Assembly (NCBI RefSeq): GCF_003032475.1
Contig: NZ_CP028369.1
Location: 9,300,001 to 9,364,000 of the forward strand
Length of the DNA: 64,000 bases
Direction: 5' to 3'
Source: Streptomyces sp. P3
GTDB taxonomy: Bacteria > Actinomycetota > Actinomycetes > Streptomycetales > Streptomycetaceae
The position numbers and the translations under genes are program-made. The notes under the pieces are model-generated. The model was given only the letters and a program-made list of their open reading frames with translations. It was not told where the DNA came from and ran no database searches. Position 1 is the stretch's first letter. The number at the start of each line of letters is the position of its first letter. Positions 18,953 to 36,500 of this stretch are shown here, piece by piece.

Positions 18953-20023
18953 TCAAGGGACAAGAGCGCCGGCGGGCAGGGTCAGGCCGAGCCGGGGCAG
19001 GCGTCCGGCGTGCGCGCGCAGATGCCGAGCCTCGGCCAGCATCACGGGGGCGAACACGCCGTCCCCGGGCGGGTGGGTCGTCAGACGGTGGTGGGCGCGG
19101 GCGCCGGCCAGCAGGGGGCGTGCCCAGGCAGGCACAGCGTGCAGAGGACAGGACCGATGGCCTACCCCATGGAGCTTGATGGCGCAGACGTCGCCGGTGA
19201 TGTCGAGGTCGCGGGTGAAGCGCAGGCTGCCCAGGCCGGCCCGGGTGAAGGCCAGCACACTCAGCGCTGCGGCGATGAGCGGGTGCGCGAGAGCGGCCAG
19301 AGCGGCGGCCTCCTGGGACGCGATCTCGATGGCAGGGGCGGCCTGGACCAGCTGCGCCGTTGCCAACGCACCGATGCAAGGGTGAGCCGGCCGCCCGGGC
19401 CTCATCGCCGCCGCCCTGGTCCCCCGCGGCGGCCGGGCGGGTGAGGACCGCCCCGCAGCCACCGCCAGCGCCGCCGGTCCCGGCATCGCCGGCGCAGCAG
19501 GAGGGAAGGACGGGCGCGCGGGTATCGGTCCCGGCTCGGAGAGAAGGGCCTCGAACTCCTCTCGGCCGCTGATACGGCGCTCCACGCGGGCCAGCGCCGG
19601 CGGCAGCCCGCGCGGGGGCTTTTGCCACAGCAGGGTCAGCTGAGCTCCCGTCAACTCGCGCCAGGCGAGCAACTGGTCGATGCGCCGGATGGTCAGCAGA
19701 TGGGCCCGGGTGACCACAACGTGCCGCACCCCGGTCGCGACACCCCAGGCAGCCGCGGCGAGCCAGGCCGCGTTCACCGAGTCCAGCCACACATCGGGGG
19801 AGTGGGGCCCGGGGGCCAGCCGCTTGCCCAGCGCATACAGCATGTCGTGCGCCAGCGCGGCCGGGCTGCCGCTGGCCGGCGTCGGCTGCACAGTGATGCG
19901 GCCTTCTGCGGGCCGGTGGGCCTGCAACGCCGCCCGTGTATAGAACAGGTCGTCCCGCTCGTCCACCACGACCGTCACGTCGCCATAAGCCAGCGCCACC
20001 GCCGCTCCCTTCCGGCCGGGCAC
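18953..20023 (-). CDS. Third gene of Tni-type module, unrecognised
   Basis: A 356-residue protein encoded 97 nt after the TniB-like gene on the same strand, with GTG as likely start. The N-terminal half has alternating strand/helix sequence with HVVVTRAHLLTIRRIDQLLA, which resembles the Walker B/sensor portion of a MuB-like ATPase but has no Walker A. A Pro/Ala-rich linker follows (about 165-225). The C-terminal part (LAHPLIAAALSVLAFTRAGL, then RDLDITGDVCAIKLHG, then CPLHAVPAWARPLL) loosely recalls the strand arrangement of tyrosine recombinases without the catalytic Arg-His-Arg-Tyr set. No TniQ-type zinc finger is seen. Position suggests a transposition accessory or target-selection role, which is inference. 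Confidence 0.6.
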   Translation of the reverse strand: MPGRKGAAVALAYGDVTVVVDERDDLFYTRAALQAHRPAEGRITVQPTPASGSPAALAHDMLYALGKRLAPGPHSPDVWLDSVNAAWLAAAAWGVATGVRHVVVTRAHLLTIRRIDQLLAWRELTGAQLTLLWQKPPRGLPPALARVERRISGREEFEALLSEPGPIPARPSFPPAAPAMPGPAALAVAAGRSSPARPPRGTRAAAMRPGRPAHPCIGALATAQLVQAAPAIEIASQEAAALAALAHPLIAAALSVLAFTRAGLGSLRFTRDLDITGDVCAIKLHGVGHRSCPLHAVPAWARPLLAGARAHHRLTTHPPGDGVFAPVMLAEARHLRAHAGRLPRLGLTLPAGALVP

Positions 20024-20120: not shown

Positions 20121-20894
20121 CTACATGCCGCCCAGCTTGCTGTACACCCAGTTGACGAGGTCCTGCTTGACCTCGGTCAGGCCCTTCATCTTCATGCCGT
20201 TGAGCATGTGCTTGGTGATGGTGGCCCAGTTGCGGAAGTTGCCGTGTGCCGCGGCCCGGTCGATGTTGCGGATCATCTGCGGGGCCACCTTGGCCCACAG
20301 GGAGTGGAACGCCGGCAGCGTGGCGACGACCTCGTCCTCGGGCATGCGGGTGAACTTCTGCCAGATGAAGATCCGTGACGCCAGCATCGGTTCACGCTTG
20401 AGGACCTTGTAGCAGTTGTCGCCGCCGGCGAAGATCACCGCGATGTCGGTGTTGCGGTCGTCCCACAGATGGCGCCAGTACTCGAACGAACTGCGGCCCA
20501 TCCACTGGGCCTCGTCGCACACCAGCACGCGGAACGTCTGCGACAGCGTCTCCTTCAGGAGGGTGTCGAATTCGATCGGCCGGGTCGGCGGTTCCCCGGG
20601 CAGCCCCAGGGCGTTAAACAGTCCGTGGCGGATGTCGCGCGGGGTTGGCCCCGAGCGCAGCTCCAGGCGGTAGGTGTTGTCGGGGGCGATCTTGCGCAGC
20701 GCCGAGTTCACCGACATCGTCTTGCCGTATCCGGCCGATCCGTAGGCGACCATCATGGCCTTGGCGTCGATCGTCGCCTGGACGTCGTCCAGGGTCGTCA
20801 TGAGCGTGTCGGTGGCCACCAGATGCGCATCGAGGCGGTGGAAGTGGTCCTCGTCCTCCGCGGGAAGCCTGCCGTAGTCCATGTCGCCGCTCAC
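20121..20894 (-). CDS. TniB-like AAA+ ATPase (transposition target protein)
   Basis: A 257-residue AAA+ ATPase of the MuB/TniB/TnsC group. Walker A YGSAGYGKT lies at about residues 51-59 and Walker B VLVCDEAQWM at about 124-133. The role in the family is ATP-dependent binding of target DNA and recruitment or activation of the DDE transposase. The start ATG overlaps the tniA stop (ATGA), so expression is coupled. The length is close to usual TniB size, and no TniQ-interacting extension is apparent. Confidence 0.85.
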   Translation of the reverse strand: MSGDMDYGRLPAEDEDHFHRLDAHLVATDTLMTTLDDVQATIDAKAMMVAYGSAGYGKTMSVNSALRKIAPDNTYRLELRSGPTPRDIRHGLFNALGLPGEPPTRPIEFDTLLKETLSQTFRVLVCDEAQWMGRSSFEYWRHLWDDRNTDIAVIFAGGDNCYKVLKREPMLASRIFIWQKFTRMPEDEVVATLPAFHSLWAKVAPQMIRNIDRAAAHGNFRNWATITKHMLNGMKMKGLTEVKQDLVNWVYSKLGGM

Positions 20895-22486
20895 GCGTTC
20901 TCCTCAGGGGTGTCGTTTTCCGGCCCGTCCGCGGCCGGCGGGATCGGGCGCGCCCAGCCGTCCGGGACGGGCTGGTGCGGGATGTAGTCGGGATCGGCCC
21001 GCCGCAGGTCCGCGGCGTCCGATTCGGCAAGTTCTGCCTCGGCCTCCGCCTCGGTCAGCGCACCCAGACGCTCGGGCGGGGTGGCGGTGGTGACGGCCTC
21101 GAAGCGCTCGCGGCGCAGCCGGGCGGCGGCCTTCATGTCCGCGCGAAGCCGCCGCGCCTTGGCGGTGCGGGCTTTGCGGACCTTGTTGACCTGCTCCTCG
21201 CTGGCCGCCTCGGCCAGAACGGCGCTGCCCAGGTACGCACCCTTGAGGTCGAAGACCTCGATGGTCGTGTCGTGGTGGGGCAGGTGGCGCACCACCACGT
21301 GGATGCCGGCCTGGCCGACCATCCAGGGGGCGATGTAGTGGCGGTTGCGCCACTGCACGCCCTGCGTGGTGATGGTGCGGGTGCGTCCGTCGTCCTCGAG
21401 CCCGAAATGGGCCAGCTGTTCGGCGGCAACGTCGTGCAGGGGAGTGGGGTCGCTCGACCACGCCTCCATCGGGGTGCGGCCGCCCAGCGCCCTGGGCTGG
21501 TGCTCGGTGTTCCACCAGTGCACCCACTTCAGCAGCAGTTCCACGAACGCCTCGAAGGAGAGCGCGGGCTCGTCCGGATCCGCGGTGCGCCCGCCGGTGA
21601 GAGTCTGCCGGTGCACGTAGCGCGGCATGGAGACGAACAGCATGTCCTCGACTGCACCGTTGAGCGCCTCGATGGTGCCCTTCAGATGCGGGCTGTAGGC
21701 CGGGAGATCGACGACGGGCACGGCGAAGGCGCCCAGGGCCGAGGCCACGGTGGCACACAGGAACTCCTTGCCGCGGTCCACCCGGATCAGGCCCGGCAGG
21801 CCGCCGGCCGGGCCGAAGGGCTCGGCACGGTCCAGGGCCATCCGCAGGGCCGCCAGCACCGCATCCGCGCTGGGTGCGTGGGGCGTCACGGCCACCCCTG
21901 TGATGACTTTGGTGCGGCAGTCGATGAACCAGGTCACCCAGGGCTGCACGAGTTGGTCCTCGAGCAACACCCGCACGGGCACACACTTGTGGTCGCCCTC
22001 CCAGGCGGCGTTGCGATGCGTGGCAGGGCGCTGCCCGAACACATCGAAGGCCCGCCGGGCGGCCTCCCCCTTGGCGAGCCCGGCCCGCTCCCCGGGCGTC
22101 AGGTCCCGGCGCAGCGCCCGGTGGATCGTCGACAGCGACGGGGCCGCAGGCAGCCGGGGATCGTTCAGGGCCCGCTGCTTCAGCTCGCGGTGCACGGCGG
22201 AGGCGTTGCCTCCCCACAGCACCAGCAGGCGCCGGATTTCCGGCGTGACGCTGAACCGTGTCCGGTCCGCCGCGTCGACGTGGCCGGTGGCGCGCGCCTT
22301 GGCGACCCACCGCCACACCGCCCGCTCCGAGCGGCCCACGGCCGTGGCGACCAGCTTCACGTGCGCGCTGGTCAGCTCGCCGCTCTGGTCCAGCGACAGC
22401 AGGCGCGGCAGCGCGGCCAGCCGCCCCGAGCGGGCGGTGAAAACCGCTTTCTCGGCACCCTGCGTGCCGGCAGAAGAGTCACTCAT
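20891..22486 (-). CDS. TniA-like DDE transposase (Mu-type integrase core)
   Basis: A 531-residue transposase. The N-terminal helix-turn-helix region (SAHVKLVATAVGRSERAVWR) precedes an RNaseH-fold rve core: first Asp in WEGDHK near residue 165, second in IRVDRGKEF near 236, and Glu in LKGTIEALNG near 271, so the D-to-E spacing is about 35. The Mu-type C-terminal beta-barrel follows (GVQWRNRHYIAPWMVGQ, near 375-400), then a basic segment. All catalytic residues are present, so it may be active. AAGGAAC precedes the ATG. It acts with the downstream TniB. Confidence 0.9.
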   Translation of the reverse strand: MSDSSAGTQGAEKAVFTARSGRLAALPRLLSLDQSGELTSAHVKLVATAVGRSERAVWRWVAKARATGHVDAADRTRFSVTPEIRRLLVLWGGNASAVHRELKQRALNDPRLPAAPSLSTIHRALRRDLTPGERAGLAKGEAARRAFDVFGQRPATHRNAAWEGDHKCVPVRVLLEDQLVQPWVTWFIDCRTKVITGVAVTPHAPSADAVLAALRMALDRAEPFGPAGGLPGLIRVDRGKEFLCATVASALGAFAVPVVDLPAYSPHLKGTIEALNGAVEDMLFVSMPRYVHRQTLTGGRTADPDEPALSFEAFVELLLKWVHWWNTEHQPRALGGRTPMEAWSSDPTPLHDVAAEQLAHFGLEDDGRTRTITTQGVQWRNRHYIAPWMVGQAGIHVVVRHLPHHDTTIEVFDLKGAYLGSAVLAEAASEEQVNKVRKARTAKARRLRADMKAAARLRRERFEAVTTATPPERLGALTEAEAEAELAESDAADLRRADPDYIPHQPVPDGWARPIPPAADGPENDTPEENA

Positions 22487-22886: not shown

Positions 22887-25800
22887 TCAGGTGTTTTCCA
22901 GCAGGCGCCCGATCGCGTCCTGGATGGCTTCGGTGGTTTCTTGCGGTGTGAGCCAGGCGGCGGTGGAGCCCTGGTCGGTCTTGTGGACGAGCAGGACGTC
23001 GTCGACGACATCGGCTACCGGGAACAGGTGGCTGATGACGATGACCCTCGTGTCCTGGGCCACGCTGTCGCTCAGGACGGCGAGGGTGTCGCCCAGGCGG
23101 ATGTTGTCCAGCGAGCCGAAGCCTTCGTCCAGGAACAGGCTTTCCAGCTTGCTGTGGCTGGTGTTGTGGAGTTCGACGAGCGCCAGCGCCAGCGCGAGGG
23201 AGGTCTGGAAGGTCTCTCCGCCGGAGAGGGTCTCCGGCTCGCGCGCGTGATTGGTGGCGCGGTCAACGATCTGGAAGTCCTCGGTGAACCCGTAGTCGCC
23301 CATGGAGATCTGCCGGAGGATCCTGCTGCCGTGCCTTAGCAGCGCATGGGTGCGCTGATCGGTGAGATAGGTGAGGAACCTCCCGTCGGTGAGCTGTTCG
23401 CTCACGTTCTTCCACACCGCGGCCTGCCGGTGGGCATCTGTGAGGGCGGTGCCCAGCGCGTCGGCGTAGGGGATTTGGGACCGCGCGGTGCTCAGGTCGG
23501 TCTTGGCCTTGTCGTGCGCGGCTTCGGCTTGGATGGTCTTGCGGCTGAGCGGGTCGAGAACGGCGGGGGCGAGCAGGTCGCTCTTCTCGGGCACCGAGAA
23601 GCCGGGTTCCTGGTCTGTCTCGTCGGCGGGGGCGCCGGCTTGGCGGATCAGCTCCTTCTCGAATGCGCGGACCTCGTCGACGGCGTGCTGCGCGGCCTGC
23701 CCGAGCGTGCCGGTCAGACGCTGATGCAGCGAGGCGAGGGCCATGCAGTAGGTGTCGACGGCGGCCAGGTCGCCTGCGTCCGGGACAGGAGGCAGGTCGG
23801 GGGATGCCTTGGCCTCGAGAAGGCCTGCGGCCTCGGTGGCCGTGTCCGCCCAGCGCTCCAGCTGCTTGATGAGATTGCGTGTGGGGGTCTCGATCGTGCG
23901 CCGGCGGCGTGCCTCCAGGGCCTGGAGGTTTTCGCTGTGCAGCGTGAGGGCCTGCCGGGCGTCGTCACGCTCCAGTGTCCTCTGCTCGAGCCGTTCGAGG
24001 CGCTGGCCGGCCGCCTCCTGCGCGGAGGCGATGTCTTGCAGGGAGGGTAGTTGTGACGGGGAGGGCTGGGCGGGGCGGATGGAGGGCGGCAGTTCGCCGA
24101 CCTCCGTCAGCAGACTCGCCAGCTCGGTCTCGTACTGCAGCCGGGTCTTGTCCAGCCGTTTGCGTTCACGCTGCAAGCGGCCGCGCTGGCGTTTGAGCTC
24201 GGCCCGGGCCGCCTCGTGCTCGGCCTGCGCCGCCCCCAGCTCCGCCTGGGCGCTCGTGTGGGCTGTGAGGGCCTCACCCTCCGCGTCGCGCAGCGGCTGG
24301 GCAAGTCCTTTGACCGCACGGGTGATCTCCGCCCGGCCTACTGGTTCGCCCTCGGCAAGGGCGTGTGCCTGAGCCGTCGTCTGCCGGCCCAGCGTGTCCA
24401 GGGCGGTGGCCGTGGCAGGAGCACCGGCTGGGTGTACCGCGTCCACCAGCTCCTGCACCTGGAGCAGCGCCGCGTCCATGCGCTCGCGGGCGGCCAGGTG
24501 TCCGCGGCGGTGCTTTTCGACCTTCCGCTCGGTTGCCTTCAGCTGGGCGGCCGCCTCCGTCTTGGCAACGACCGCCGTTTCGACGGCGTTCGAGCGTGTG
24601 GTGACCTTGCGTCTGGCCTGAGTAAGCGCCTTGCCGTCCAGCAGCGGCGGGGGAGTGAAGTCGCTCGGGAGGGGCTGGGCGCACACCGTGCAGGCGTCCC
24701 CGGGCGCCAGACCAGCACCCGCCGCGGGGGCCGCTTCCTTGCGCTGCAGCGCTGCGAGGTCGTCCTGGGCTGCTTCCAGAGCGCCGCGCAGCTTCTTCAG
24801 CTCGCTCTCCAGGCTGGCGCTGTGGCCGCGCTGTTCCTCCACCGTCTCGAGCGTCGTGCGCTGAGTCTGCAGATGCCCGGCCGCGGTGTTGGCCTCCTGC
24901 AGCGCTGCCCGGACGGCCTCCTGGATCTGGTCGGTGTGCGTGCGTGCCTCGCTCACCATGCGCTCGGCCCGGCCGGCGGCCTCGACGAGGGCCGCCTTGC
25001 GCTGCTCGTGCTCTTCCAGTTCCTGTCGTGCCTGCGTGTGCTCCTGTTCGTGCTCGTTGTGCTGCTCCTGCTCCTGCTTCAGCCGCTGTTCGACGGCGTC
25101 CAGGCCGGCTGCACGCTCCGGCAGGCGGGACAGGACAGCGAACGCGCTGGACAGGGAGCGGAGCGTGTCACCGGACTGTGCGGCCGTATCCAGGGCGCCC
25201 TGTGCCGCCTCCAGTTTCTCGGTCAGGTCGCGTCCGGTGGTCTCCTGTTCTGCTGCCTCGGCATCGAGTTCCCTCTTCTTCCGGGCCAGCGCGGCCATCG
25301 TGATGCTCGCATCCGCAACAGCACGCTCACGCAGCAGTCGCGCCGCTTTGTCCAAGCCCGTCTTGCGGTGCTTGTGCTCGACGGCCCGGCTCTGGGCCGC
25401 GCGCAGCGCATCCAGTCGCTCGCGCCGACGGGCCGCGATACCCCGGGTGCGTTCCAGGTCCAGCAGCGCCTGGGAAGCGGCAGCATGAGGATCCGGCAGG
25501 AGAAGCGCGCGGGCCCTGGTCCCCTCGGTGATCTGCGTATTCAGGCGCTCCAGTCGCACGCCGGCCCGCTTGCGTACACGCTCGAGCTCGTTGATGCCGA
25601 AGATGTGCCGCAGGATGTCGGCACGCATGGCCTTGGGGGCCTTGAGGAGGGTGTCGAACTTCCCCTGGCGCAGCAGGACCGTGCTGACAAAGCCGTCCCA
25701 GTCCAGTCCGATGATCCGGGTCACCGCCTGCGTCACCGCGGCCTTGCCGTCGACCTGCAAGTCGGCGCTGTCTTCGGCCAGGGGCTCGAGCAGGGCCTGC

Positions 25801-26099
25801 GGCCTTTGCTTGCGGTCCGCATGCAGGGTGCGGCGCACACTCCACTCGCGGCCGTTCGCCGAGAACTCGAATGCCACGTCCATGCTGGGGCATCCCTTGC
25901 CGATCAGCTCGTAGGCGGCCTTGGGGTCCTTGGACCACGAACACGTCCCGTACAGGGCGAAGATGATCGCCTCGAGGATGGTGGACTTGCCCACGCCGGT
26001 GTTGCCCAGAATGGCGAGCAGGCGTTTGCCGGTGAAGTCGATGCTGCAGGTGCCGGCGTAGCTGCGCACTCCCGTGAGGGTGAGCCGCAAGGGCTTCAC
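22887..26099 (-). CDS. sbcC: SbcC-like SMC/Rad50 nuclease ATPase
   Basis: A 1,070-residue Rad50/SbcC-type ATPase. Walker [11 protein letters not shown] is at about residues 30-39; long heptad-rich coiled coils flank a zinc-hook CTVC at about 466-469; the ABC signature [10 protein letters not shown] is near 959 and Walker [15 protein letters not shown] near 990, with the switch histidine in VISHLF. In the family it forms a tetramer with SbcD that opens hairpins and cleaves protein-blocked DNA ends. The ATG overlaps the stop of the preceding 78-residue partial SbcC gene. Its place among mobile and nuclease genes suggests an accessory copy rather than the housekeeping one; that is inference. Confidence 0.88.
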
Positions 26100-26332
26100 G
26101 ATGCCTCCATCCCGGTGTCTTCCAGCGCGGTGCGCGGCAGTTCCTCAAAACCCCTGCTGTCCTTCGGCCACGGGCACCTCCCGTACAGGGCGAAGATGAT
26201 CGCCTCGAGGATGGTGGACTTGCCCGCGCCGGTATCGCCAGTGATGCCAGGCAGATGCTTGCCGGTGACGTCGATAGTGCTGGCGCCGGGGTAATTGCGC
26301 ACTTCTGTGAGGGTGAGCCGCACGGGCCTCAT
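26096..26332 (-). CDS. Mini-SbcC: stand-alone copy of SbcC N-terminal Walker A segment
   Basis: A 78-residue frame, aligned with the first about 60 residues of the next gene: [16 protein letters not shown] matches [16 protein letters not shown], Walker [10 protein letters not shown] is kept, and [12 protein letters not shown] is identical. It then diverges and stops. It overlaps the SbcD stop (26329-26332) and the SbcC start (26096-26099), each by 4 nt, so it sits exactly in the operon reading order. It is either a relic of a partial tandem duplication kept in frame or a small peptide that could interfere with, or assist, Rad50-type ATPase assembly. Codon use resembles its neighbours. Confidence 0.7.
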
Positions 26333-27573
26333 GACGCCTCCTTCCAGGGGTTTTCCAGCGCGGCGCGCAGCTGTTCCTCGGCAGGGACCGGGGTCAGCGT
26401 CTCGTCGTCGAGTTCGTTGAGCAGGTGGAGGAATGCGGTGACGGTCGACTCCGCGGCATCTGCGTCCACTCCCTCACGTGCCAGGTAGGCCCGGAATGCG
26501 TCGGGGAGTGCCGGCTCGTCGCTCAGGTCACCGTCCAGGACGGCGCTGACGGCCGCTTCCCGCGCCGGGGCGGCGTTGATGAGGATCGCGTTCGGGACGA
26601 TCTCGGCGATCTTCTGGCTGAGGAGCCCGTCGGGCTCCTCGCCGGTGATCGCCGGTTTGAGGAAGGTCCCGTCGTATTGGTCGGCCGTGGCCTTCAGTTC
26701 CTCGAGGGTCCCGGTGAAGTGGGTCAGCCGCCGGCCGCTGGAGAGCCGGCGCGGCAGCACCCGCACCGGCCGCCCCGGGTCGGCGTCGACGATCACGACG
26801 CTCTTGATCTCGTCGGCCTCGCCGAAGTCCATGGCAAGCGGGCTGCCCGCGTAGCGGGCGGCGAACTTCAGGCCCTCGATGGCCTGCGGGCGGTGGATGT
26901 GTCCGAGAGCGGCGTACGACACCACCGGAAGGTCTTCGGGAGGGGTTTCGAAGGCCTCGTCCACGGCCCGTTCGCTCGGGGAGGTCCTAGCGCCGGTGAT
27001 GAACACATGGGTCGTGAACAGCAGGATGTCCCGGTTGGGGTCGTATCCCTCGTGCAAGGCCTCCGTCAGTTCCCCCTGCAGACCGCGCATCGCCGCGGTG
27101 TAGTCGGCATACGACGTGCCGGAGGTGGAATCGTGCCGCCAGAACCGGTTCGGGTGCACGAAGGGCAGGACAGCCAGCCGGATGCGCTGCTCACCGCCGC
27201 AGGCCTCGAAGGTCATTACGCCCCCGTCGTGTGCTGGGCGGAGCCGGTCGACGAAGAACAGGCCCCGGCCGCAGGAGGGACCGCTCATGAAGTTGAAGAA
27301 CTCGAAGTAGTCGGGGGAGTCGTGGTTGCCGGCCAGGACCACGGTGGGGGCGATGGCGGCGAGTTCGCGCAGGGTGCGCATGGCGCGGAACATGTCCCGG
27401 ACGGTGGGACGGGAGGAGTGGAACAGGTCGCCGCTGTTGACGATCAGGTCCGGCTGGCTCTCCTGGGCGATGGCCACGATCTCGGCCAGGACGGCGTCGA
27501 AGTCCTCGTCGCGTGGATGCCCGTGCAGGATGTGGCCCAAATGCCAGTCGGAGGTGTGGAGCAGTCTGCTCAT
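26329..27573 (-). CDS. sbcD: SbcD-like Mre11 exonuclease subunit
   Basis: A 414-residue Mre11/SbcD-type calcineurin-like phosphoesterase. Metal-ligand motifs appear in order: SDWHLG (residues 8-13), GDLFHS near 48, GNHDS near 82, TTHVF near 187 and GHIHRP near 223, so all five are present and the Mn-dependent nuclease should be active. The C-terminal 130 residues form the capping and SbcC-binding part. It is the first gene of the sbcD / mini-sbcC / sbcC operon; all junctions are 4-nt overlaps. Confidence 0.88.
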   Translation of the reverse strand: MSRLLHTSDWHLGHILHGHPRDEDFDAVLAEIVAIAQESQPDLIVNSGDLFHSSRPTVRDMFRAMRTLRELAAIAPTVVLAGNHDSPDYFEFFNFMSGPSCGRGLFFVDRLRPAHDGGVMTFEACGGEQRIRLAVLPFVHPNRFWRHDSTSGTSYADYTAAMRGLQGELTEALHEGYDPNRDILLFTTHVFITGARTSPSERAVDEAFETPPEDLPVVSYAALGHIHRPQAIEGLKFAARYAGSPLAMDFGEADEIKSVVIVDADPGRPVRVLPRRLSSGRRLTHFTGTLEELKATADQYDGTFLKPAITGEEPDGLLSQKIAEIVPNAILINAAPAREAAVSAVLDGDLSDEPALPDAFRAYLAREGVDADAAESTVTAFLHLLNELDDETLTPVPAEEQLRAALENPWKEAS

Positions 27574-27644
27574 GCCTTCATGCGCCCTTCTGGAAGCGAG
27601 GCGTAGGAGGGCACCGGTGGTGCCTTATGAGCCCGGGACTGTAC

Positions 27645-27945
27645 ACCAAATTCCCTGGAGTAAAACTGGATGTCCCGAGTAGCTGTCGACATCCAGCATG
27701 GGTGAGCATCGGGTCACTCTCGAGAGGCGCATGCGACAGATGCAGGAGGCGGTCCGGCAGGCGCTCACGCAACACGATACTTTCCAAGTCTGCTTTCTAA
27801 GCTCGAATTTGACATCCGCCTGAGGCGTCTGAAACGTTCTTTGCGGGCTCAGCGATGCCCCGACACGGTCCAGTCGACGCCCGCGCCTACGGCGCCGAGT
27901 TCCGCCAAGGTGTGCCCACACGCGACCGGATCCATCAAGCGTCGG
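27645..27945 (+). pseudogene. Decayed tandem copy of the 5' part of the coiled-coil gene downstream
   Basis: The sequence from about 27650 parallels that from about 27955: a shared TGGA-TAAAACTG upstream element, then an ATG near 27699 reading MGEHRVTLERRMRQMQEAVRQ against MDEHLVALEKRMQQLQEALRQ. After ALTQHD the frame is lost, but nucleotide similarity resumes around GCGGGCTCAG and GACACG, extending to CAAGCGTC near 27945. It is a degenerate duplicate of the promoter and first 250-300 nt of the 28003 gene. Confidence 0.65.
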
Positions 27946-28002
27946 TCTTGGTAATTTACTGGAATAAAACTGGGAGCCCCGAGTGACTGCTAGCATGCGT
28001 GC

Positions 28003-28842
28003 ATGGACGAGCATCTGGTCGCTCTCGAGAAGCGCATGCAACAGCTGCAAGAGGCGCTCCGGCAGGCGCTCACACAACATGACGACGCCCAAGTGAACGT
28101 CCTGGGCAAGGAGTTGACCCGCATTCGACACGCCTGGGACGTGCTGTGCGGGCTCAGTGATGTCCCGGACACGACCCCGCCGGAGGCCCAGCCAGAGGTC
28201 CGGCCGGAGCCCGTGCTTACGGTCGCCGAGCCGCCCCAGGGCGTGCCCGTACGTGACCAGGTCCACCAGGCGCTGGCCCTCCTCACCGTCCCCGCCTCGC
28301 CCAAGCTGCTCAGCCAGGTGCACCAGGCGTTCTTCTCCAGCCCGCTGAACACGGCCCGCCTGACCACCCTGCGCCGTGACGAGGAACGCTCCTTCCGCTC
28401 CGCCCCCTATGGCCGCGCCTACTACATCTGTCCCGCGCTGACCTTCGACCTGCTCTCACCGGCCCGCGGGTTGCTCGCCTTGAGCACTTGGCCGCTGGAG
28501 CAGCGCCTGGTGGGGCCGCTCACCCAGCGCGTCCACTTCCTCACCTCGGCCCTGCGGCTCGCGGACGCCGCCGAACACCTCGCTGGCGAGGCCGGGATGC
28601 CACAGCCCGTCCAGCAGCTCCTGCTGCACTACAGCCGCAACATTCACGGCGACACCCCCCGGGGCCCGCTCGACCTGGAGGCGCTGCGCCGGGCCGCCGC
28701 AGCGGAGCTGGAGATCCACGCCGACGACGACGCCGACACCCGCGCCGAAGCGGCCCAGCGCGCACGCGAGCAACTCGGCGACGTTGAGCAGATCTTCGGC
28801 AATATCCTGCGCGACACCGCCCGCCTGCGCCGCACTTCATAA
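28003..28842 (+). CDS. Coiled-coil / winged-helix-like protein, unknown function
   Basis: A 279-residue protein I do not recognise. The N-terminus (residues 1-50) is an amphipathic, Gln-rich coiled coil. A Pro/Glu linker follows (56-78). The middle (about 82-150) reads like a winged-helix unit: DQVHQALALLTVPASPKLLS, VHQAFF, then RLTTLRRDEERSF and a wing-like YGRAYYICPAL. The C-terminus (about 165-275) is helical and acidic. It is the first gene of the plus-strand arm opposite sbcD; with a DNA-binding-like core it may be the locus regulator or a DNA adaptor. A degraded copy of its 5' end lies just upstream. Confidence 0.7.
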   Translation: MDEHLVALEKRMQQLQEALRQALTQHDDAQVNVLGKELTRIRHAWDVLCGLSDVPDTTPPEAQPEVRPEPVLTVAEPPQGVPVRDQVHQALALLTVPASPKLLSQVHQAFFSSPLNTARLTTLRRDEERSFRSAPYGRAYYICPALTFDLLSPARGLLALSTWPLEQRLVGPLTQRVHFLTSALRLADAAEHLAGEAGMPQPVQQLLLHYSRNIHGDTPRGPLDLEALRRAAAAELEIHADDDADTRAEAAQRAREQLGDVEQIFGNILRDTARLRRTS

Positions 28843-28892
28843 ACCCGCCCCTGCAACCAGCACGGCTGTGCCCTGTCCCGCCAAGGAAATCA

Positions 28893-30038
28893 GTGAGCTC
28901 GCTCGACGCACGACTGGGCGTATTGCGCGGAACCGCGCCGCCCATCCCGCACAACGCACGCACCCTGGCTGCTTTGACCGCCAATCCGAGCTGCGACCGC
29001 CGCTCCCTGCTGGACGCGGCCGGCATCGACAAAGACGCCCTCGCCGGCCATCTGGGCCTCCCGCGGCCGCTGAGAAAATCCCAGCTCGCCCTCGACTACG
29101 GCATCGCCTTCGAACGCACGGTCACCGCTCAGGCCGGAGCCCCCCTGGTGCCGCTGCTCCGCCAAGCCCTGGGCCTGACCCTGCCGGAGGTGTCCTACGA
29201 GGACGTCAACAGCGTCGGCAGCGATGACGACAAGTCCCCCCTGAAACTACGCCGCGCCCATACCCGCTCCCGCATCCTCAGCGCAGCACACCACAGGTCG
29301 GACAACCCTCGCACCCTGCTCGACCACCCCGTACTGTGTCTGACCGTCGCCGGCCACCAGGTCTACCTCGAGCCCGACGTCATCGCCTTCCAGCGCGACG
29401 GCATCTTCCACGTCGTGGAGATCAAATCCTTCCCCGTCATCCACGGACAGCCCGACCCCATCAAGGCCAACGCAGCACTGACCCAGGCCGCCGCCTACGT
29501 CCTGGCCCTGCGGGAACTCCTCGCTGGCGACGGCCTCCCGCCAGAACACGTCTCCGACACCGTGATCCTGGTCAACCCGCGCAACTTCACCCGCCACCCC
29601 ACGGCCACGCCCTTCAGCGCCCACAAGCAGATCAAGAACCTAAGCCGCCACCTCGGCAGACTGAGGCGCCTGCCCGAAATGCTGGACAAACTTCCCCCCG
29701 ACACCACCTTCGACCTGGCGCCCGGCCCCGACCAGAAACCGACCCGGCCCCCCGGTGAACTCGTTGCCGCACTCGCCACCGTGCGGCCGCACTACACCCC
29801 CGGCTGCCGCCACCACTGCGACCTGGCCTTCCACTGCCGAACCGAGGCCCGCAACCAGGGCCGGACCGCGGCCCTGGGCACCGCAGTCCGTGACGACCTC
29901 GCGGGGATCGACACCATCGCCAAGGCCCTGGCCCTCACCGACGGGCACCTGCACCCCTCACGGGGCCAGAAAGACCTCACCCAGGCCCTGCGCCACGCAC
30001 AGCGCATCCACGCAGACCTCCAGACGGACACCGCATGA
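28893..30038 (+). CDS. Cas4/AddB-like PD-(D/E)XK nuclease with Fe-S cysteines
   Basis: A 381-residue nuclease. The PD-(D/E)XK core is clear: LEPDVIAF near residue 158, HVVEIKSF near 172 (the E-x-K pair), then QAAAYVLAL near 195, the Q-x-x-x-Y motif. Four cysteines fit the Fe-S cluster of Cas4/AddB nucleases: one N-terminal (NPSCDRR, residue about 33) and three near residues 309-320 (GCRHHCDLAFHC). Such enzymes are DNA exonucleases or end-resection factors. It follows the coiled-coil gene by 50 nt, and its stop overlaps the next start (ATGA at 30035-30038). It is not next to any CRISPR array or cas1. Confidence 0.8.
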   Translation: MSSLDARLGVLRGTAPPIPHNARTLAALTANPSCDRRSLLDAAGIDKDALAGHLGLPRPLRKSQLALDYGIAFERTVTAQAGAPLVPLLRQALGLTLPEVSYEDVNSVGSDDDKSPLKLRRAHTRSRILSAAHHRSDNPRTLLDHPVLCLTVAGHQVYLEPDVIAFQRDGIFHVVEIKSFPVIHGQPDPIKANAALTQAAAYVLALRELLAGDGLPPEHVSDTVILVNPRNFTRHPTATPFSAHKQIKNLSRHLGRLRRLPEMLDKLPPDTTFDLAPGPDQKPTRPPGELVAALATVRPHYTPGCRHHCDLAFHCRTEARNQGRTAALGTAVRDDLAGIDTIAKALALTDGHLHPSRGQKDLTQALRHAQRIHADLQTDTA

Positions 30039-31534
30039 TCCGGCTTACCTCACTCCTGCGGATGCGCGCCGCCCACACCGGCAATGCTCAACGCGCCAGC
30101 CAACTGCGCCACCTCCACCTCAGCGACCAGCCGCTGATGCTGCTGGCGCTGAAGCAAACCGGCCCCGCCGCACGACCGCTGGCCATCATGCTGGGCACCG
30201 ACCCACACCGCCCCCAGCTCCTGCTCGCCCCGCCCTCAGGCAGCACCACTCCCATGCTCGCCGCCCTGGCAGACGCCGTCACCGCCTACATCAACGCCTG
30301 CCAGCGGCACAGCGAGCACCTGCCCGCCACCTCCAACAAGCCGGCACGCCGCCGCTACACCGATGCCCCCCAGATCCTCGTCCCCAACCCGCAGACCGTG
30401 CAGCACCTGAAAGACCTCGGAGACGACCTGAGGTTCCGCAGCGCCGACGACCAGAATCCCGACTCCCGAGCCGTCCAGCGCTTGGGACACTGGCTCACCT
30501 ATCTCACCGACCGCGCCGACCTGGCCGGCTCAGCCGCCCTCATCCCCATGACCAGCTTCCTCGGCATGCACTGGATCAGCGGCCAAAGCCCCCTCGAGGA
30601 CGAGGACCTGGCCACCCTGCTGGCCTGGATCGACCCGCCCCACCACGCAGCCTCCGGACGTGGCGCCGCACTGGAGGCAGAAGACCCGGCCACCCACCGC
30701 CCGGCGGGACCAGCCACCGACGCCGCCTTCGACAACGACCACCTGGCGCCCCTGTTCGACGCCCACGCCCGCGCCCGGCGCCGGGCCCTGGGCCAGGAGC
30801 AGACCCGCACCCTGCAAGAACTCGACCGCCTGCTGGCCACCTACCTGCAGCCCACCTGGGACCTCATGTGGCAGGCCTACACGCTCCTGCAGGCCCTCCC
30901 CGAAGCCAAGGGCACCGCACGCCGCTGGGACCACGAACGCACCGCATTCACCGACGAATGCCTCTACCTGGCCCAGGACGGACGCCCCCGGCCGGCCCGC
31001 GACAACGCCGTCGCCGCCGCCGTCCGCCTGGCCCACATGGAACACGCAGCCGCCGCCTTCGCCGCCGAACGCGCCGCCGACGACCCCTTCGTACGGGCAG
31101 AACTGCGCACCACCGGCGAAGCCTTCGGCGGTCCTGTCACCGTGATCGACTCGGAGCGCACCCTGCGCGGGCCCAGCGGACGAACCCAATGGCGGCCCAG
31201 GCTGACCGTGTCCACCCCGGACCCCGTGCCGATGGAACCAGGCCAGCTCCTGGTCTGCCACACCTACCCCAACGCCCGCTACAAGATCTGCGAGGTCACT
31301 CCGGCCGACGGCGACACCCTCGTCGAACTCGAGATCACCGCCGGCATGGGCACCATGGCCCGCCCCAACCACGCCGTCCTGCCCGAAGCCGGCGCCTTCC
31401 TCGTGTTCACCATCGCACCGGGGCACTACCGGATGCCGGAATTCCCCGCACGAGAGCAGACACCCTGGACCCACGGCGGACCTCCTGCCGACCATCCGGA
31501 CCACAGCGACGACAGGGGCGAGGAAGAACAGTGA
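30035..31534 (+). CDS. Unknown 499-residue protein coupled to nuclease and helicase
   Basis: No family recognised. Residues about 1-130 look like an alpha/beta domain (LRHLHLSDQPLMLLALKQTG, PLAIMLGTD). The middle (about 215-360) is strongly helical, Ala/Arg-rich, with a possible coiled coil. The C-terminal 110 residues are beta-rich (PMEPGQLLVCHTYPNARYKI, then LVELEIT, AFLVFTIAPGHYRM), reminiscent of an OB-like fold. The last 25 residues are acidic and His-rich. ATGA and GTGA overlaps on both sides tie it between the Cas4-like nuclease and the SF1 helicase, so it is probably a subunit of the same complex. Confidence 0.65.
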   Translation: MIRLTSLLRMRAAHTGNAQRASQLRHLHLSDQPLMLLALKQTGPAARPLAIMLGTDPHRPQLLLAPPSGSTTPMLAALADAVTAYINACQRHSEHLPATSNKPARRRYTDAPQILVPNPQTVQHLKDLGDDLRFRSADDQNPDSRAVQRLGHWLTYLTDRADLAGSAALIPMTSFLGMHWISGQSPLEDEDLATLLAWIDPPHHAASGRGAALEAEDPATHRPAGPATDAAFDNDHLAPLFDAHARARRRALGQEQTRTLQELDRLLATYLQPTWDLMWQAYTLLQALPEAKGTARRWDHERTAFTDECLYLAQDGRPRPARDNAVAAAVRLAHMEHAAAAFAAERAADDPFVRAELRTTGEAFGGPVTVIDSERTLRGPSGRTQWRPRLTVSTPDPVPMEPGQLLVCHTYPNARYKICEVTPADGDTLVELEITAGMGTMARPNHAVLPEAGAFLVFTIAPGHYRMPEFPAREQTPWTHGGPPADHPDHSDDRGEEEQ

Positions 31535-32895
31535 CACCCCCTCACCAGCCATCGCCGCAGCAGCAGATGGATCAGGCCGCCCACGCCATCCTGGAACAAC
31601 TGCCCACGCTCACCCACCGCGGACTCGTCGTGGACTCTCCGCCCGGCGCCGGCAAATCCACCCTGGTCGCCCAGGCCGCCGACGCTCTCGCGCAATCCAG
31701 CGCCCCCCGCGTCGTCATCACCCAGACCAACAGCCAGGTCGACCACCTCGTGCGGCGATTCGCCCAGCACCACCCGCACCTGCGAACCGCCCGGCTCACC
31801 GCAACGGACCACACCGTCCCGCACGACCTGCAGGCACATCCCGGCATCCGGATCGGCACCCGCATCGAAGCCCTCGAAAAGACGGCCGACGTCATTGTGG
31901 GAACCGCCATGAAATGGGCCACGGTCACCGACCGCCGATGGCCATGGGCGATCATCGACGAGGCCTACCAGATGCGCTCCGACACGCTTTTGTGGATCGC
32001 CGGCATCTTCGACCGGGCCCTCTTCGTCGGAGACCCCGGCCAACTCGACCCCTTCTCCGAGGTCGAAACCGACCGCTTCCATGGCCTGTCCCACGACCCC
32101 ATGAACAGCGCGGTCGCCGTCCTGCTCGCCAACAACCGCGACCTGCCCGTCCACTCCCTGCCCGTGTCCTGGCGCCTGCCACCTTCAGCGGTCCCCCCGA
32201 TCAGCAACGCCTTCTACCCCTCCACGCCCTTCCACGCCGGAAGCCGTGAAGCCGACCGCACCCTCACGTTCTCCCCCCTCGACATCCGCACCCCCACCGA
32301 CGAGGTCATCGAACACGCCGCCCGAACCGGATGGGCACTGTTCGAGCTACCGGCCCGCATCACTGGCCGACGCGACATCGAAGCCTTCCAGGCCGTCCTC
32401 GGCATCGCCGAGCGGCTGCTGACCCGGCGCGCCATCACCACCTGCGAGGAAAACCCCCAGGGGCACATCCTGCAGCCCGGTGACATCGCCATCGGCACCG
32501 CCCACCGCAGCCAGGCCCACGACATCCGCGCACTCCTGACCCGCCACTACCCCCAACTGCACGGCATCACCGTCGACACCGCCAACCGACTCCAAGGCTG
32601 CGAATTCCGCATCACCATCGTCCTGCACCCCCTCTCCGGCCGCGGCGACGCCTCCGCCTTCCACCTGGAAGCCGGCCGCCTGTGCGTCCTCACCTCACGC
32701 CACCGCCACGCCTGCATCGTCGTCGCCCGCGCCGGCATCGCCGAACTCCTCGACGCCCACCCCTCCAACGACCCCGTACACCCCGGCGCCGCCTCCAAGG
32801 TTGCCGACGGCTGGGAGGCCAACCACGCAGTCCTCGCCCACCTGACCGAGCACACCATCAACGCCCAGGCACGGCCCGGTCGCCGACGCGGATGA
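31531..32895 (+). CDS. SF1 (UPF1/DNA2-like) DNA helicase
   Basis: A 454-residue superfamily-1 helicase. Motif I SPPGAGKST is near residue 37, motif II IIDEAYQM near 137, motif III GDPGQLDPF near 166, motif IV VSWRLPP near 212, motif V region VDTANRLQGCEF near 350, and motif VI LTSRHRHACIVVA near 387. It is compact, without large 1B/2B inserts. Start GTG at 31531 (GTGA overlap with the previous stop; GAGGAAG upstream). With a Cas4-like nuclease two genes upstream it forms a split version of an AddAB- or DNA2-like helicase-nuclease pair. Last gene of the arm. Confidence 0.85.
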   Translation: MTPPHQPSPQQQMDQAAHAILEQLPTLTHRGLVVDSPPGAGKSTLVAQAADALAQSSAPRVVITQTNSQVDHLVRRFAQHHPHLRTARLTATDHTVPHDLQAHPGIRIGTRIEALEKTADVIVGTAMKWATVTDRRWPWAIIDEAYQMRSDTLLWIAGIFDRALFVGDPGQLDPFSEVETDRFHGLSHDPMNSAVAVLLANNRDLPVHSLPVSWRLPPSAVPPISNAFYPSTPFHAGSREADRTLTFSPLDIRTPTDEVIEHAARTGWALFELPARITGRRDIEAFQAVLGIAERLLTRRAITTCEENPQGHILQPGDIAIGTAHRSQAHDIRALLTRHYPQLHGITVDTANRLQGCEFRITIVLHPLSGRGDASAFHLEAGRLCVLTSRHRHACIVVARAGIAELLDAHPSNDPVHPGAASKVADGWEANHAVLAHLTEHTINAQARPGRRRG

Positions 32896-32938: not shown

Positions 32939-33337
32939 TCACCCGCGGTCGCGCACCACACCGCAAACGATCATGATGCGATGTGCCGACCACGCGCTAT
33001 GGCAGGCGCCGCATACGGCCTTGCGCCATCCCCCTGGCCAGTCGTCGCGGGTGCGGATACGGCCGGGTGCGCCGCAGAACTCACAGGTGCGCTCCGCCTC
33101 CTCCTCGGCCGGGGCGATCAGGCTCCTTAGGGTGTCGCCGCTGCCCGGCGGCCCTTCCACATAGACGCGCAGACCACCGAGTTTCTCCTTGAGATCGAGG
33201 AGACGGTAACCGGGAAAGGCCGCACGGATCTGTTCATGCAGACGCTCCAGCAGATGTCGCCAGCCCGGCCCCACTGCGTGGATCCGCGCGGGAATCTGTA
33301 CCGGGCGCGCATCAGGGGCAGCGGGGTCGTCAGCCAT
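32939..33337 (-). CDS. Small conserved Zn-ribbon protein
   Basis: A 132-residue protein convergent with the helicase gene. The N-terminal helix GWRHLLERLHEQIRAAFPGY and the strand LKEKLGGLRVYVEGP are typical of a common bacterial family of unknown function that ends in a zinc ribbon; here CEFCGAPGR and, 20 residues later, CGACHS supply the two cysteine pairs (about residues 87-90 and 112-115). Start MADDPAA is chosen; the open frame extends further upstream without likeness. Cytoplasmic; function unknown. Confidence 0.65.
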   Translation of the reverse strand: MADDPAAPDARPVQIPARIHAVGPGWRHLLERLHEQIRAAFPGYRLLDLKEKLGGLRVYVEGPPGSGDTLRSLIAPAEEEAERTCEFCGAPGRIRTRDDWPGGWRKAVCGACHSAWSAHRIMIVCGVVRDRG

Positions 33338-33506
33338 GGCCCCATCCTCGCGCACCGCGCGTTGCCGAGGCTCAGCCCACAAGGGGTGCTGGTACACGAC
33401 GCGCCTGAGCACTCAGCGCCCCAGACGCCTGCATGGCCCCGGGATGTCAGTGGAGTACCGGACACTGGTCGTGCGTGACTGCGGCAGTGAGACCGGGGGG
33501 AACGAC

Positions 33507-36500
33507 GTGAGTGACGATGCCGTCCAGCTCGAGAAGCGTATCCGCTTCGCCTTGGGCACCCTCGGCGAGAGCAACAGCCACCACGAGTTCGAGGCCCTGT
33601 GCCTGGGCCTGGCCCGCCGCAGGATCACCAGCAATCTGCTGCCGGCGACCGGCCCCGTCAGCGCCGGCGGGGACCAGGGCCGGGACGCCGAAAGCCACTG
33701 GAGCAACATTCCCAGGGAACTGCCCGACACGTCCCTGTTCGCGTCGCTGGCCTCCACCCAGAGGGTGGTGATGGCCTGCACCATCCAGGCCGCCGACATC
33801 CCCGGCAAGATCCGAAAGGACCTGGCATCGATCTGCGGGCAGGGCACACCCGTTGACCGCGTCATCTACTTCACGGTGACCGCCGTGCCCACCAGAAAAC
33901 GGCACGACCTGATCGAAGAAGCCGCCCGGACGCACCAGGTCGACCTGGAGATCTGGGACGCGGCCGCCCTCGCTCTCCACCTCGCCGACTACGACCTGTT
34001 CTACCTCGCCGTCCAGTACCTCCACCTGCCCTCCGACCTCACTTCACCGCGCCCGGACGGAGCCGGTGAACTGCCCGACTGGTATGCCGAAGCCCGCCGT
34101 CGATGGCAGGCCAACGACGAGCCGGCCCGCACCCTGGGCGACCTGGTGGACCTGCGGGGCCCGCTGCGCCACGCCACCTTCCACGACGAGGCCCGGGCGG
34201 ATCTGCCGGAATGGATCGGTCACGCACGTGCCCTGCTGGCCGCCGCGGCGGGGGAGCACACCGCTCTGCGGGCCCGCTACGAGATCGTCGTGGCCACCCT
34301 GCGCGGCCTGGGCGACATGCGCCCGGCGGACCAGGTGGCCCGCGACTTCTTCGACACGGTCACCGCCGACGACACTCTCACCGACCCGGGAATCCTCGAG
34401 GACGCCGTCGTGCTCCTCGGATACGGATTCGGGGCACTGATCCGCAATCTCACCGCGCTGAGTGCAGACGACCTGTGCGGCTGGCAGCGCCTGCTGGCCG
34501 ACAAGACCGACCGCCTGCTGAACGCGGACCCGCCCGCCAACGCCATGGCCCATCTGCTGGCCATGCGAGCCCGCCTGGCCCTGCACACCGACATGACCGC
34601 CGACCTCGAATCCGTGCCCGAGGACCTGCCGACCGTCGCGGAGGTCACCGCATCCGTCCTCGAAGCGGTGGAAGCCGGTGAACCGGTACCTGCTCTCCAG
34701 ACGCGGCCGCCGCTCACGGACCTCGACACCGCCATGAACATCCTGCTCCGGCTCGGCCACCACCTGGACAACGCACCGCTGTTCCCCATCGAGCACACCG
34801 CCGACCTCTTCGACTACCTCACCCCCGTACTGGTGGACCACCCCCTGTACCGGGAGGTCCGTGACCTGCTCGACCAGGCAACCGACCGGGTCATCGGCCA
34901 GAGTGCACGCGGCGAACGCGCTCAGTCCCGGGGCCACGCCCTGATCAAGAGCGGCCGCATCCTCCAAGCACTCCAGGAGATCCACGAGGCCAAGGCCAAC
35001 TGGCTGCGCGGCGACACCCTCGAGGGCGGCCTGATCATGCTGCTGCTGTGCGCGCGCCTCTACAGCGAACTCGGCCTGCCCATCGCCGCCAAGCAGTACG
35101 CACTCGCAGCCGCCACCGCCGCAAAGTCCGCGCCCAACCCCGAACTCAGCCGCTTCATCCCCCGCGGCATCATCCACGCCGCCCAGTACGACCGCCAGGC
35201 CGGAAACTGGATCTCCGCCACCCGCCTGTTCTGCATCGGCCTCATGGCACAAACCGACTACTGCGACGAGCCGTACAACAACGAACGCTACCCCCACGTC
35301 TGGGACATGATGGGCAATCAGGCGCTCACTCTGCGCGTGGCCGGCGAGGTGCGGCCCGGCTTCGTCCCCCTGCTCCGCACGATCACCGCCTCGGTGGGCA
35401 TCGACACCATCATCGACGAGATGCTCGCCCCGACCGCCAACGTCCCCACAGCAACCGAAGAGACGTACGCCGAGGAGGCCGACACCCACGGTGCGGGACG
35501 GCCCTTCAGCGACGCCGGCCCCACACGCCGCTACGCCTGGAACGCGCTCGGCGTCGACTGGGAGATCACCTGTCTGAACGACCGGCTGTCGGTACTGGCC
35601 ACGGAACGCTACACCGCAGCACTCCAAGTGTTCCTCGGCGAACTCGCCCTAGGAGACCCGCTGTTCCTGCCCGGATGCCTGAGCGTCGAGATCCACGCAG
35701 ACGCCACCCTGCCCCACGACCAGCCCGCCCTCTTCGACCAGAGCGCCGACCGGGACACCAACCGGTGGAGGCTGCGCCTGCCCACAATCGCCCCCGCGGA
35801 CCTGGAAACAGAGCCCTCCCGTCTGCTCACCGCCCTGGTCAAGGTGGTGCTCTCCCAGTCGCTGCTCTCCGACCAGGCATTCATGCACCTCGTCGAGCAG
35901 GCGCTCGCCGGCGGCCTCTGGCACAAGCTCTTCGTCGGCCGCCCCTACGACGAACTGGCCGACTTCCTGAGGGCCGACGACTACCAGACGATGGCTGCGC
36001 TCGCCGACCCGGCCGTCGGAGCAGGCACGCCGCGCGGCCAGGCGAAACCGGCTGCCCTGCCGGCCCGGACCGGGCCTGGGCCCGGCTACGAGCACGAGAC
36101 AGCCCTCGACACCGTCCGCAACCGCTATGCCAACCTGCTCCCCATCGTGCGCTACACCCTTCCCCGCCTGGCCGCGGACCCCGGCTTCCGGCGTACAGCC
36201 ACGCAGTTGAGGCAGGAAGGGTGGCGCGACTGGCACCTGCTGACCGCCATCGCCAACGCGGTCGGAAACCATCGCGCCCAGCAGCAGGGCCTGCGTCCTT
36301 CCCCGGGCGATTCCCCAGAACACCGAGCTCGCATCCTCGCCGCCATGCAGGCCCCCGAGCGTCCCGACGACCCGCCGGTTCCCGCAGAGGCATTTACCGA
36401 ACATGCCCTGCGCTCACACCTGTCCGTGGCTGCGGTGAGCACCGCGCGCGGCCTCGGCCTCGCCATCCGCCCCGGCCCGCTCGACCCTCAGGCACTGCTG

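Follow-up and report, generated by a model that had tools for sequence, protein, structure and literature searches.

The window analysed here, a stretch of 64,000 nucleotides (positions 9300001-9364000 of NZ_CP028369.1, the single 9.85-Mb contig of Streptomyces sp. P3), carries a cassette of two divergent gene arms. The minus-strand arm consists of sbcD, a 78-amino-acid open reading frame (ORF) denoted mini-sbcC, and sbcC; the plus-strand arm comprises gene 28003, the nuclease gene 28893, gene 30035 and the helicase gene 31531 (hel). Wadjet is a bacterial, loop-extruding SMC nuclease that cleaves circular DNA of foreign origin. Outside the clade of the window copy, most relatives of this cassette that bear sbcCD lie beside Wadjet genes, which suggests that the cassette is a previously undescribed Wadjet partner. 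We favour, with slightly better than even confidence, the reading that it encodes an end-degrading machine, a Mre11-Rad50 enzyme combined with a split DNA2, which was recruited to defence against plasmids or mobile elements. Its novelty, as we judge it, lies in the combination, in which known enzyme types are brought together in a new and repeatedly Wadjet-linked arrangement.

To define the neighbourhood of the cassette, we collected its nearest relatives, that is, the best 80 of at least 421; counts among them are not a census. In the following, L numbers denote relative loci, G numbers sampled Streptomyces genomes and P numbers individual proteins. Each locus was extended by 10 kb or to the contig end, so that absence of Wadjet means absence from that stretch. 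The 80 loci fell into 9 of the window clade, 38 others bearing sbcCD and 33 without sbcCD; the closest relatives of the window are Streptomyces. The Jet genes of Wadjet, first seen by neighbour clustering together with PADLOC and Pfam scans, were detected with profiles built from complete operons, and representatives were confirmed by PADLOC. They were present in 35 of the 38 loci that bear sbcCD and fall outside the window clade (not in L040, L077 or L032, the last being a short contig), as opposed to 2 of the 33 loci without sbcCD (L028 and L065; Fisher p 2e-14, with relatedness ignored). In 28 of the 35, jetA was co-directional with hel or sbcC and followed it at gaps of 2 nucleotides to ∼2.1 kb; two computed gaps were negative because ORF starts are uncertain. 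Six of the 35 were convergent, including L014 and L017 (jetD only, 3.3 kb away). The nearest Jet gene detected in L043 was jetB, and L044 held only jetA and jetC fragments. A JetC2x call in L011 was rejected (a 78-residue ORF scoring 57 bits).

Wadjet types I, II and III all occur beside relatives of the cassette, and jetD was confirmed by PADLOC in all five operons examined (L124, type I; L128 and L130, type II; L126 and L127, type III). We mapped the types onto a nuclease tree of 97 rows, from which L051, L058 and L097 had been dropped (aligned nuclease shorter than 300 residues). The mapping gave 9, 10 and 7 changes for types I, II and III, respectively, of which at least 7, 9 and 6 are forced by supported branches; the sister loci L034 and L053, for example, carry type I and type II. 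The arrangement is also found on plasmids: a linear plasmid record of Streptomyces sp. NBC_01244 reads SbcC-SbcD and then 28003-nuclease-30035-helicase-JetA-JetB-JetC-JetD, and a second plasmid record has the four-gene arm and JetABCD intact with sbcCD broken. Whether Actinobacteria have repeatedly coupled Wadjet to a counterpart of MRN-DNA2 that is interchangeable among the three types, with a TnsB-TnsC-X partner in the window clade, we regard as evenly balanced.

A second sample, 199 Streptomyces genomes in which only the best first-look candidates were scored and the best matches listed, gave the same picture. There, jetA lay near seven of the eight accessory cassettes outside the window clade (G022, G033, G086, G095, G097, G137 and G194), and the eighth, G093, is at a contig end with no jetA nearby. 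A hand estimate from ∼290 jetA loci in ∼1.7 Gb put the chance expectation at ∼0.003 jetA per locus within 10 kb. Several accessory cassettes are near the ends of chromosome contigs or plasmid records (at both ends in G049 and G128 and within ∼6 kb in G093, all three being single-contig genomes, and in L123 and L124). These terminal positions fit the enrichment of Wadjet at Streptomyces chromosome ends described in the accessible portions of an actinobacterial defence survey (PMC10482375). That enrichment could mean that cassette and Wadjet merely pile up in the same terminal defence islands and do no joint work. We consider such passive proximity very doubtful, because jetA stands co-directionally and straight after hel or sbcC in most Wadjet-bearing loci, at gaps down to a few nucleotides, because the Wadjet type was exchanged repeatedly, and because Wadjet is nearly absent where sbcCD is lacking. 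As a separate observation, type III JetA was found in 193 of the 199 genomes, so that type III Wadjet looks almost core to Streptomyces. One subclade of the relative loci repeatedly carries a DEAD/DEAH helicase that has helicase-associated (HA) domains, located after hel in L012, L013, L014, L015, L024 and L040 and on the sbcC side in L039.

The two arms are linked. The locus-type sbcD profile gave 13 matches in 11 of the 199 genomes at E 5e-82 or better (the G022 match is partial), the locus-type nuclease profile gave 13 at E 1.8e-160 or better, and all 13 accessory sbcD genes stood side by side with all 13 accessory nucleases. The proposal of the original prediction that the two arms form one linked end-processing unit is thereby upheld. 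In the nuclease tree, 50 of 51 sbcCD-bearing loci (L021 being counted on an sbcD fragment) fell into one clade of 52 rows with support 96/90; outside it stood L077, whose sbcD-sbcC pair is located downstream and is not divergent. The order nuclease-30035-helicase was seen in all 80 nearest loci, with 30035 and helicase fused in L011 and the helicase of L032 running into a contig end, and gene 28003 was present in 79.

Several observations weigh against the reading that we favour. The converse association is weak, since the cassette occurs at roughly 7 of 290 jetA loci. Among the 80 nearest loci, 33, from Actinomadura, Nonomuraea, Dactylosporangium and others, have the plus arm with no sbcCD found alongside. 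As regards linkage, three sbcD matches had no accessory nuclease nearby, one in G129 (E 9e-72) and two in G128 (both E 2e-68), where the sbcD ORF is intact. The arms are hence linked yet separable, the plus arm being more widespread than accessory sbcCD. The original prediction had named independent occurrence of the arms as evidence against itself, and this was found in part: the plus arm often occurs without sbcCD, whereas accessory sbcD was not found alone in the genomes searched. Its further suggestion, a self-standing and undescribed defence system, is not supported, given the predominance of Wadjet beside relatives outside the window clade and the frequency of plus arms without sbcCD.

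The plus arm also has a wider background. At least one nuclease match occurred in 186 of the 199 Streptomyces genomes, and the window genome itself has a second nuclease at 3.23 Mb, in a nuclease-30035-helicase triad with neither 28003 nor sbcCD detectable beside it. Of 16 non-accessory copies that were read, 11 were triads with no 28003 detectable by phmmer, the sole means by which its absence was judged, and 5 had 28003; sbcCD was beside none. Ten of the 11 triads were included in the nuclease tree, where they formed a single clade with 100/100 support. In a phylum sample, the nuclease was present in 13 of 296 genomes and 5 of 198 genera, two of the 13 matches being weak. Three of 72,556 plasmid records matched, including one chromosome-sized Nonomuraea record. 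Mre11-Rad50 and DNA2 are the end-resection pair of eukaryotic recombination. Together with the near-ubiquity of the nuclease in Streptomyces and the prevalence of triads lacking detectable 28003 and sbcCD, this speaks for a repair or protection module, which would resect accidental breaks made in the host chromosome by Wadjet or other defences and so prepare them for recombination. The accessory version is patchy, however, and swaps Wadjet types, as a defence system would; we therefore hold the repair explanation to be rather improbable.

Gene content, strands and the 4-nucleotide overlaps on the minus arm are as originally predicted. Genes were called from ORFs and codon-position GC content, with no gene finder. 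The overlaps join sbcD to mini-sbcC, mini-sbcC to sbcC, the nuclease to 30035 and 30035 to the helicase; genes 28003 and 28893 are 50 nucleotides apart. The ratio of nonsynonymous to synonymous substitution rates (dN/dS) was 0.20-0.42 for the six real genes in one pairwise comparison, window against L003, indicating purifying selection on all of them. SbcD (26329..27573, minus strand, 414 residues) is an SbcD/Mre11-like nuclease of an accessory type. It matched Metallophos and TIGR00619 over cut-off, and its metal-ligand positions Asp9, His11, Asp49, Asn83, His84, Asp85, His189, His225 and His227 were invariant in 16 aligned sequences. SbcC (22887..26099, minus strand, 1070 residues), an SbcC/Rad50-like ATPase also of accessory type, matched AAA_23, SMC_N and SbcC_Walker_B over cut-off and scored 172 bits against TIGR00618, under the cut-off of 478.5. 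The CxxC zinc-hook motif was present in all 41 aligned SbcC proteins (the window copy and 40 of 50 relatives, 10 being left out by length), and the Walker A, signature and Walker B residues were conserved in the same alignment. A second sbcD lies in the same genome at 5.07 Mb, which agrees with the earlier expectation that the locus copy is not the sole, housekeeping one and supports its assignment as accessory.

The mini-sbcC ORF (26096..26332, minus strand), listed as a gene in the original prediction, was rejected as a functional subunit. It arose by tandem duplication of the start of sbcC, of which it is a truncated copy (25919-26146 and 26152-26379, 82% identical, 233-nucleotide spacing), and with a dN/dS of 0.75 in the same single comparison its constraint is relaxed. 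It is probably a remnant, to judge from these repeats; it was also found in L003, L007, L009 and L133. The start of gene 28003 is likewise duplicated upstream and decayed. The duplicate (27649..27862, plus strand), delineated by the direct repeats D2 and D12, covers the promoter region and 5' end, with 27696-27862 being 74% identical to 28001-28167. This copy is present in the window, L003, L006 and L007 and absent from L005 and L010. Each divergent arm thus shows an independent tandem duplication of its own 5' end (25919-26379 and 27649-28167, at spacings of 233 and ∼305 nucleotides). The duplications are common to some close relatives and are either chance remnants or something regulatory. 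A search for a conserved operator yielded a 13-nucleotide motif in just 5 of 135 loci.

The first gene of the plus arm, 28003 (28003..28842, plus strand), encodes a putative adaptor of 279 residues with a coiled coil and a winged-helix-like region. Family-model scans matched no model to it or to the product of gene 30035, Foldseek returned no match at E 0.001 for either, and sequence searches of the PDB gave designed proteins and coiled coils or nothing. Gene 28893 (28893..30038, plus strand) encodes a Cas4/AddB-like PD-(D/E)XK nuclease of 381 residues. In an alignment of 32 sequences, Glu160, Asp162, Glu176 and Gln198 as well as Cys34, Cys305, Cys309 and Cys315 were invariant and Lys178 nearly so; the prediction of an Fe-S-type nuclease with four cysteines is confirmed in this respect. 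One cysteine precedes the PD-(D/E)XK core and three follow it, as in Cas4/AddB-type Fe-S nucleases. No Cas4 or PD-(D/E)XK model of Pfam or NCBIfam scored over cut-off, and NERD was sub-threshold (E 0.0033). The helicase (31531..32895, plus strand, 454 residues) is a compact superfamily 1B (SF1B) enzyme of the UPF1/DNA2 type, which matched AAA_11, AAA_12 and AAA_30 over cut-off and whose motifs SPPGAGK, DE.YQMRSD, GDPGQLDPF and SRHR were invariant in 42 rows. Its Walker A motif begins near residue 36, and the N-terminal stalk/1B region would accordingly be missing.

The product of gene 30035 (30035..31534, plus strand, 499 residues) is proposed to supply this 1B part. Its N-terminal region is DnaQ/RNase-H-like and its C-terminal half resembles a stalk and barrel, the best, weak fold match being the stalk and barrel of Sen1/senataxin. 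Eight full-length proteins are 30035-helicase fusions; a complete nuclease-30035-helicase fusion was absent from the 120 proteins examined. On the strength of these fusions, the Sen1/senataxin match, the compact N terminus of the helicase and the Cas4-like cysteines of the nuclease, the three proteins (nuclease, 30035 and helicase) appear to resemble a DNA2 split over three genes and kept in DNA2 domain order. Two other fusions were dropped as evidence: P0353, which links the helicase to SbcC, and P0274, which links nuclease and helicase and lacks 30035. Each is a single metagenomic sequence whose junction deletes conserved parts, and both are probably assembly or deletion products.

We next consider the window copy, which belongs to a clade with no Wadjet alongside. 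No Jet gene was found in the window by phmmer and profile search, none of the nine window-clade loci had a credible one, and the window genome gave no match to JetD_C (PF09983). It does carry jetA genes elsewhere, of type II at 1.78 Mb and of type III at 4.95 Mb, so that the cassette could act in trans. A type II jetA was present in two of six window-clade genomes and, judged by coordinates, was not close to the cassette in either. Directly beside sbcC, seven of the nine window-clade loci have a TnsB-TnsC-X operon, the other two ending at contig ends; TnsB adjoins sbcC in L003, L005, L006, L007, L009, L010, L011 and L090. The TnsB-like DDE transposase (20891..22486, minus strand) matched Mu-transpos_C over cut-off and rve below it, with Asp165, Asp237 and Glu273 invariant in seven sequences, that is, with its DDE residues intact. 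The TnsC/TniB-like AAA ATPase (20121..20894, minus strand) matched AAA_22 over cut-off and TniB sub-threshold, and is 81-98% identical across window-clade loci. Protein X (18953..20023, minus strand), which had no Pfam or PADLOC match, is conserved with TnsB and TnsC in the window clade and in L017, a sister-clade locus with the operon on the helicase side.

This conserved neighbour with intact catalytic residues, found on the other flank in L017, is what speaks for a cassette that serves the TnsB/TnsC element, either as an accessory processing transposition ends or as plain cargo, and the original prediction had offered service to the adjacent transposon as one role. That role fails outside the window clade, where relatives mostly have Wadjet genes and no transposase; nearly all sbcCD-bearing loci there carry Wadjet, and TnsB/TnsC occur only in L017. 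A search for end repeats over 17-40 kb, moreover, gave no convincing transposon ends around the locus. We therefore think the transposon explanation highly unlikely.

Further out, a pPIWI-RE system (PprPIWI, PprDinG and PprRE; 10984-18204, minus strand; PADLOC) stands directly left of the Tns operon. Wadjet beside the relatives and pPIWI-RE beside the window copy support the defence setting that the original prediction had considered. Near the cassette of L040, one of the few that lack Wadjet, distant matches to PIWI (24%) and DinG (32%) were also noted. On the other side, 3' of the helicase, lies a gene for a 1085-residue protein (33336-36593, plus strand) with no Pfam, PADLOC or NCBIfam match; a 93% identical counterpart follows the L004 cassette, and a partial one is found in L008.

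In the mechanism that we propose, SbcD-SbcC would recognise DNA ends and open blocked, hairpin or protein-bound ones, as known for its family. Nuclease, 30035 and helicase, in the order nuclease, stalk/barrel, RecA cores, would act as a DNA2-type helicase-nuclease that unwinds and degrades the DNA, and the 28003 protein might, more speculatively, tie the two parts to each other or to DNA. Beside Wadjet, JetABCD would extrude and cut a foreign circle and the module would then destroy the linear product, an order made likely by the adjacency of Wadjet genes to most sbcCD-bearing relatives outside the window clade. For the window copy, the ends may instead come from other nucleases of its genome, such as the type II or III Wadjet encoded elsewhere, or from the adjacent pPIWI-RE system.

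The same enzymes could also form an end-directed defence of their own that complements Wadjet, with Wadjet taking closed circles and the module attacking linear invaders (linear plasmids, phage genomes) through their protein-capped or hairpin ends. Mre11-Rad50 enzymes open blocked ends, cassette and Wadjet travel together, and the window clade retains the cassette without an adjacent Wadjet, all of which suit this explanation. Streptomyces chromosomes, however, have protein-capped ends themselves, and cassettes lie near contig ends (G049, G128 and G093) and on a linear plasmid, so that such a defence would need to avoid attacking its host. A further report (PMC12624138) describes how hairpin telomeres are protected against SbcCD by a protein of phage origin, which we count in favour of this explanation. 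The cassette had no match in 50,697 phage records, a result that bears neither way on this explanation. Overall, we regard end-directed defence as possible but unlikely.

Searches of open-licence PubMed Central papers returned no description of the cassette, and the accessible portions of the actinobacterial survey (PMC10482375), of a review of SMC-based immunity (PMC10586767) and of a BREX paper (PMC12839542) mention no such Wadjet partner. In these portions, the fate of Wadjet-cut DNA and the partners of Wadjet are open questions. If the proposed clean-up after the Jet cut is correct, a conserved, type-independent partner would provide a direct genetic handle on the fate of the cut DNA, and a DNA2-like enzyme that is divided among three genes and works with Mre11-Rad50 in immunity would parallel, in bacteria, the end resection of eukaryotes.

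Comparison with known systems places the cassette between several of them. With SbcCD and Mre11-Rad50 it shares an intact phosphoesterase, a Rad50-type ATPase with a zinc hook, and overlapping genes. Its SbcD nevertheless belongs to an accessory subfamily whose members share 39-77% identity with the window copy, housekeeping sbcD scoring far lower, and among the top-scoring matches in the 199 Streptomyces genomes accessory sbcD occurs only beside the four-gene arm. In archaea, Mre11-Rad50 is linked with the helicase HerA and the nuclease NurA for end resection, a likeness in composition; none of the nine window proteins that were scanned, by contrast, matched a HerA or NurA model over cut-off. 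In AddAB, AdnAB and RecBCD, too, DNA ends are processed by a helicase together with a nuclease of the Fe-S or RecB type. The helicase of the cassette, however, matched AAA_11 and AAA_12, as UPF1-type enzymes do, and no UvrD-type model, and an AddAB-type enzyme was therefore rejected. Of the two enzymes in the original analogy, AddAB and DNA2, it is DNA2 that the composition resembles, as a split DNA2 together with Mre11-Rad50. DNA2 and enzymes of the TM0106/TIGR03491 type share with the cassette a nuclease of the Cas4-like Fe-S type, putative RNase-H-like and barrel regions and a UPF1-type SF1B helicase, in the same order. DNA2 differs in being one polypeptide, as opposed to three genes in the cassette, or two where 30035 and helicase are fused. 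As for TIGR03491, a family-model scan gave no match to the window proteins, and hhalign against five TIGR03491 proteins, a shallow test with some of them incomplete, yielded no significant match for nuclease (E 0.96) or 30035 (E 0.37) and one confined to the P-loop for the helicase (E 0.0019). Wadjet (JetABCD, types I-III), finally, is described as a system of four genes. It shares the locus in nearly all sbcCD-bearing relatives outside the window clade, although the cassette contains no Jet subunit and the window copy has no adjacent Wadjet.

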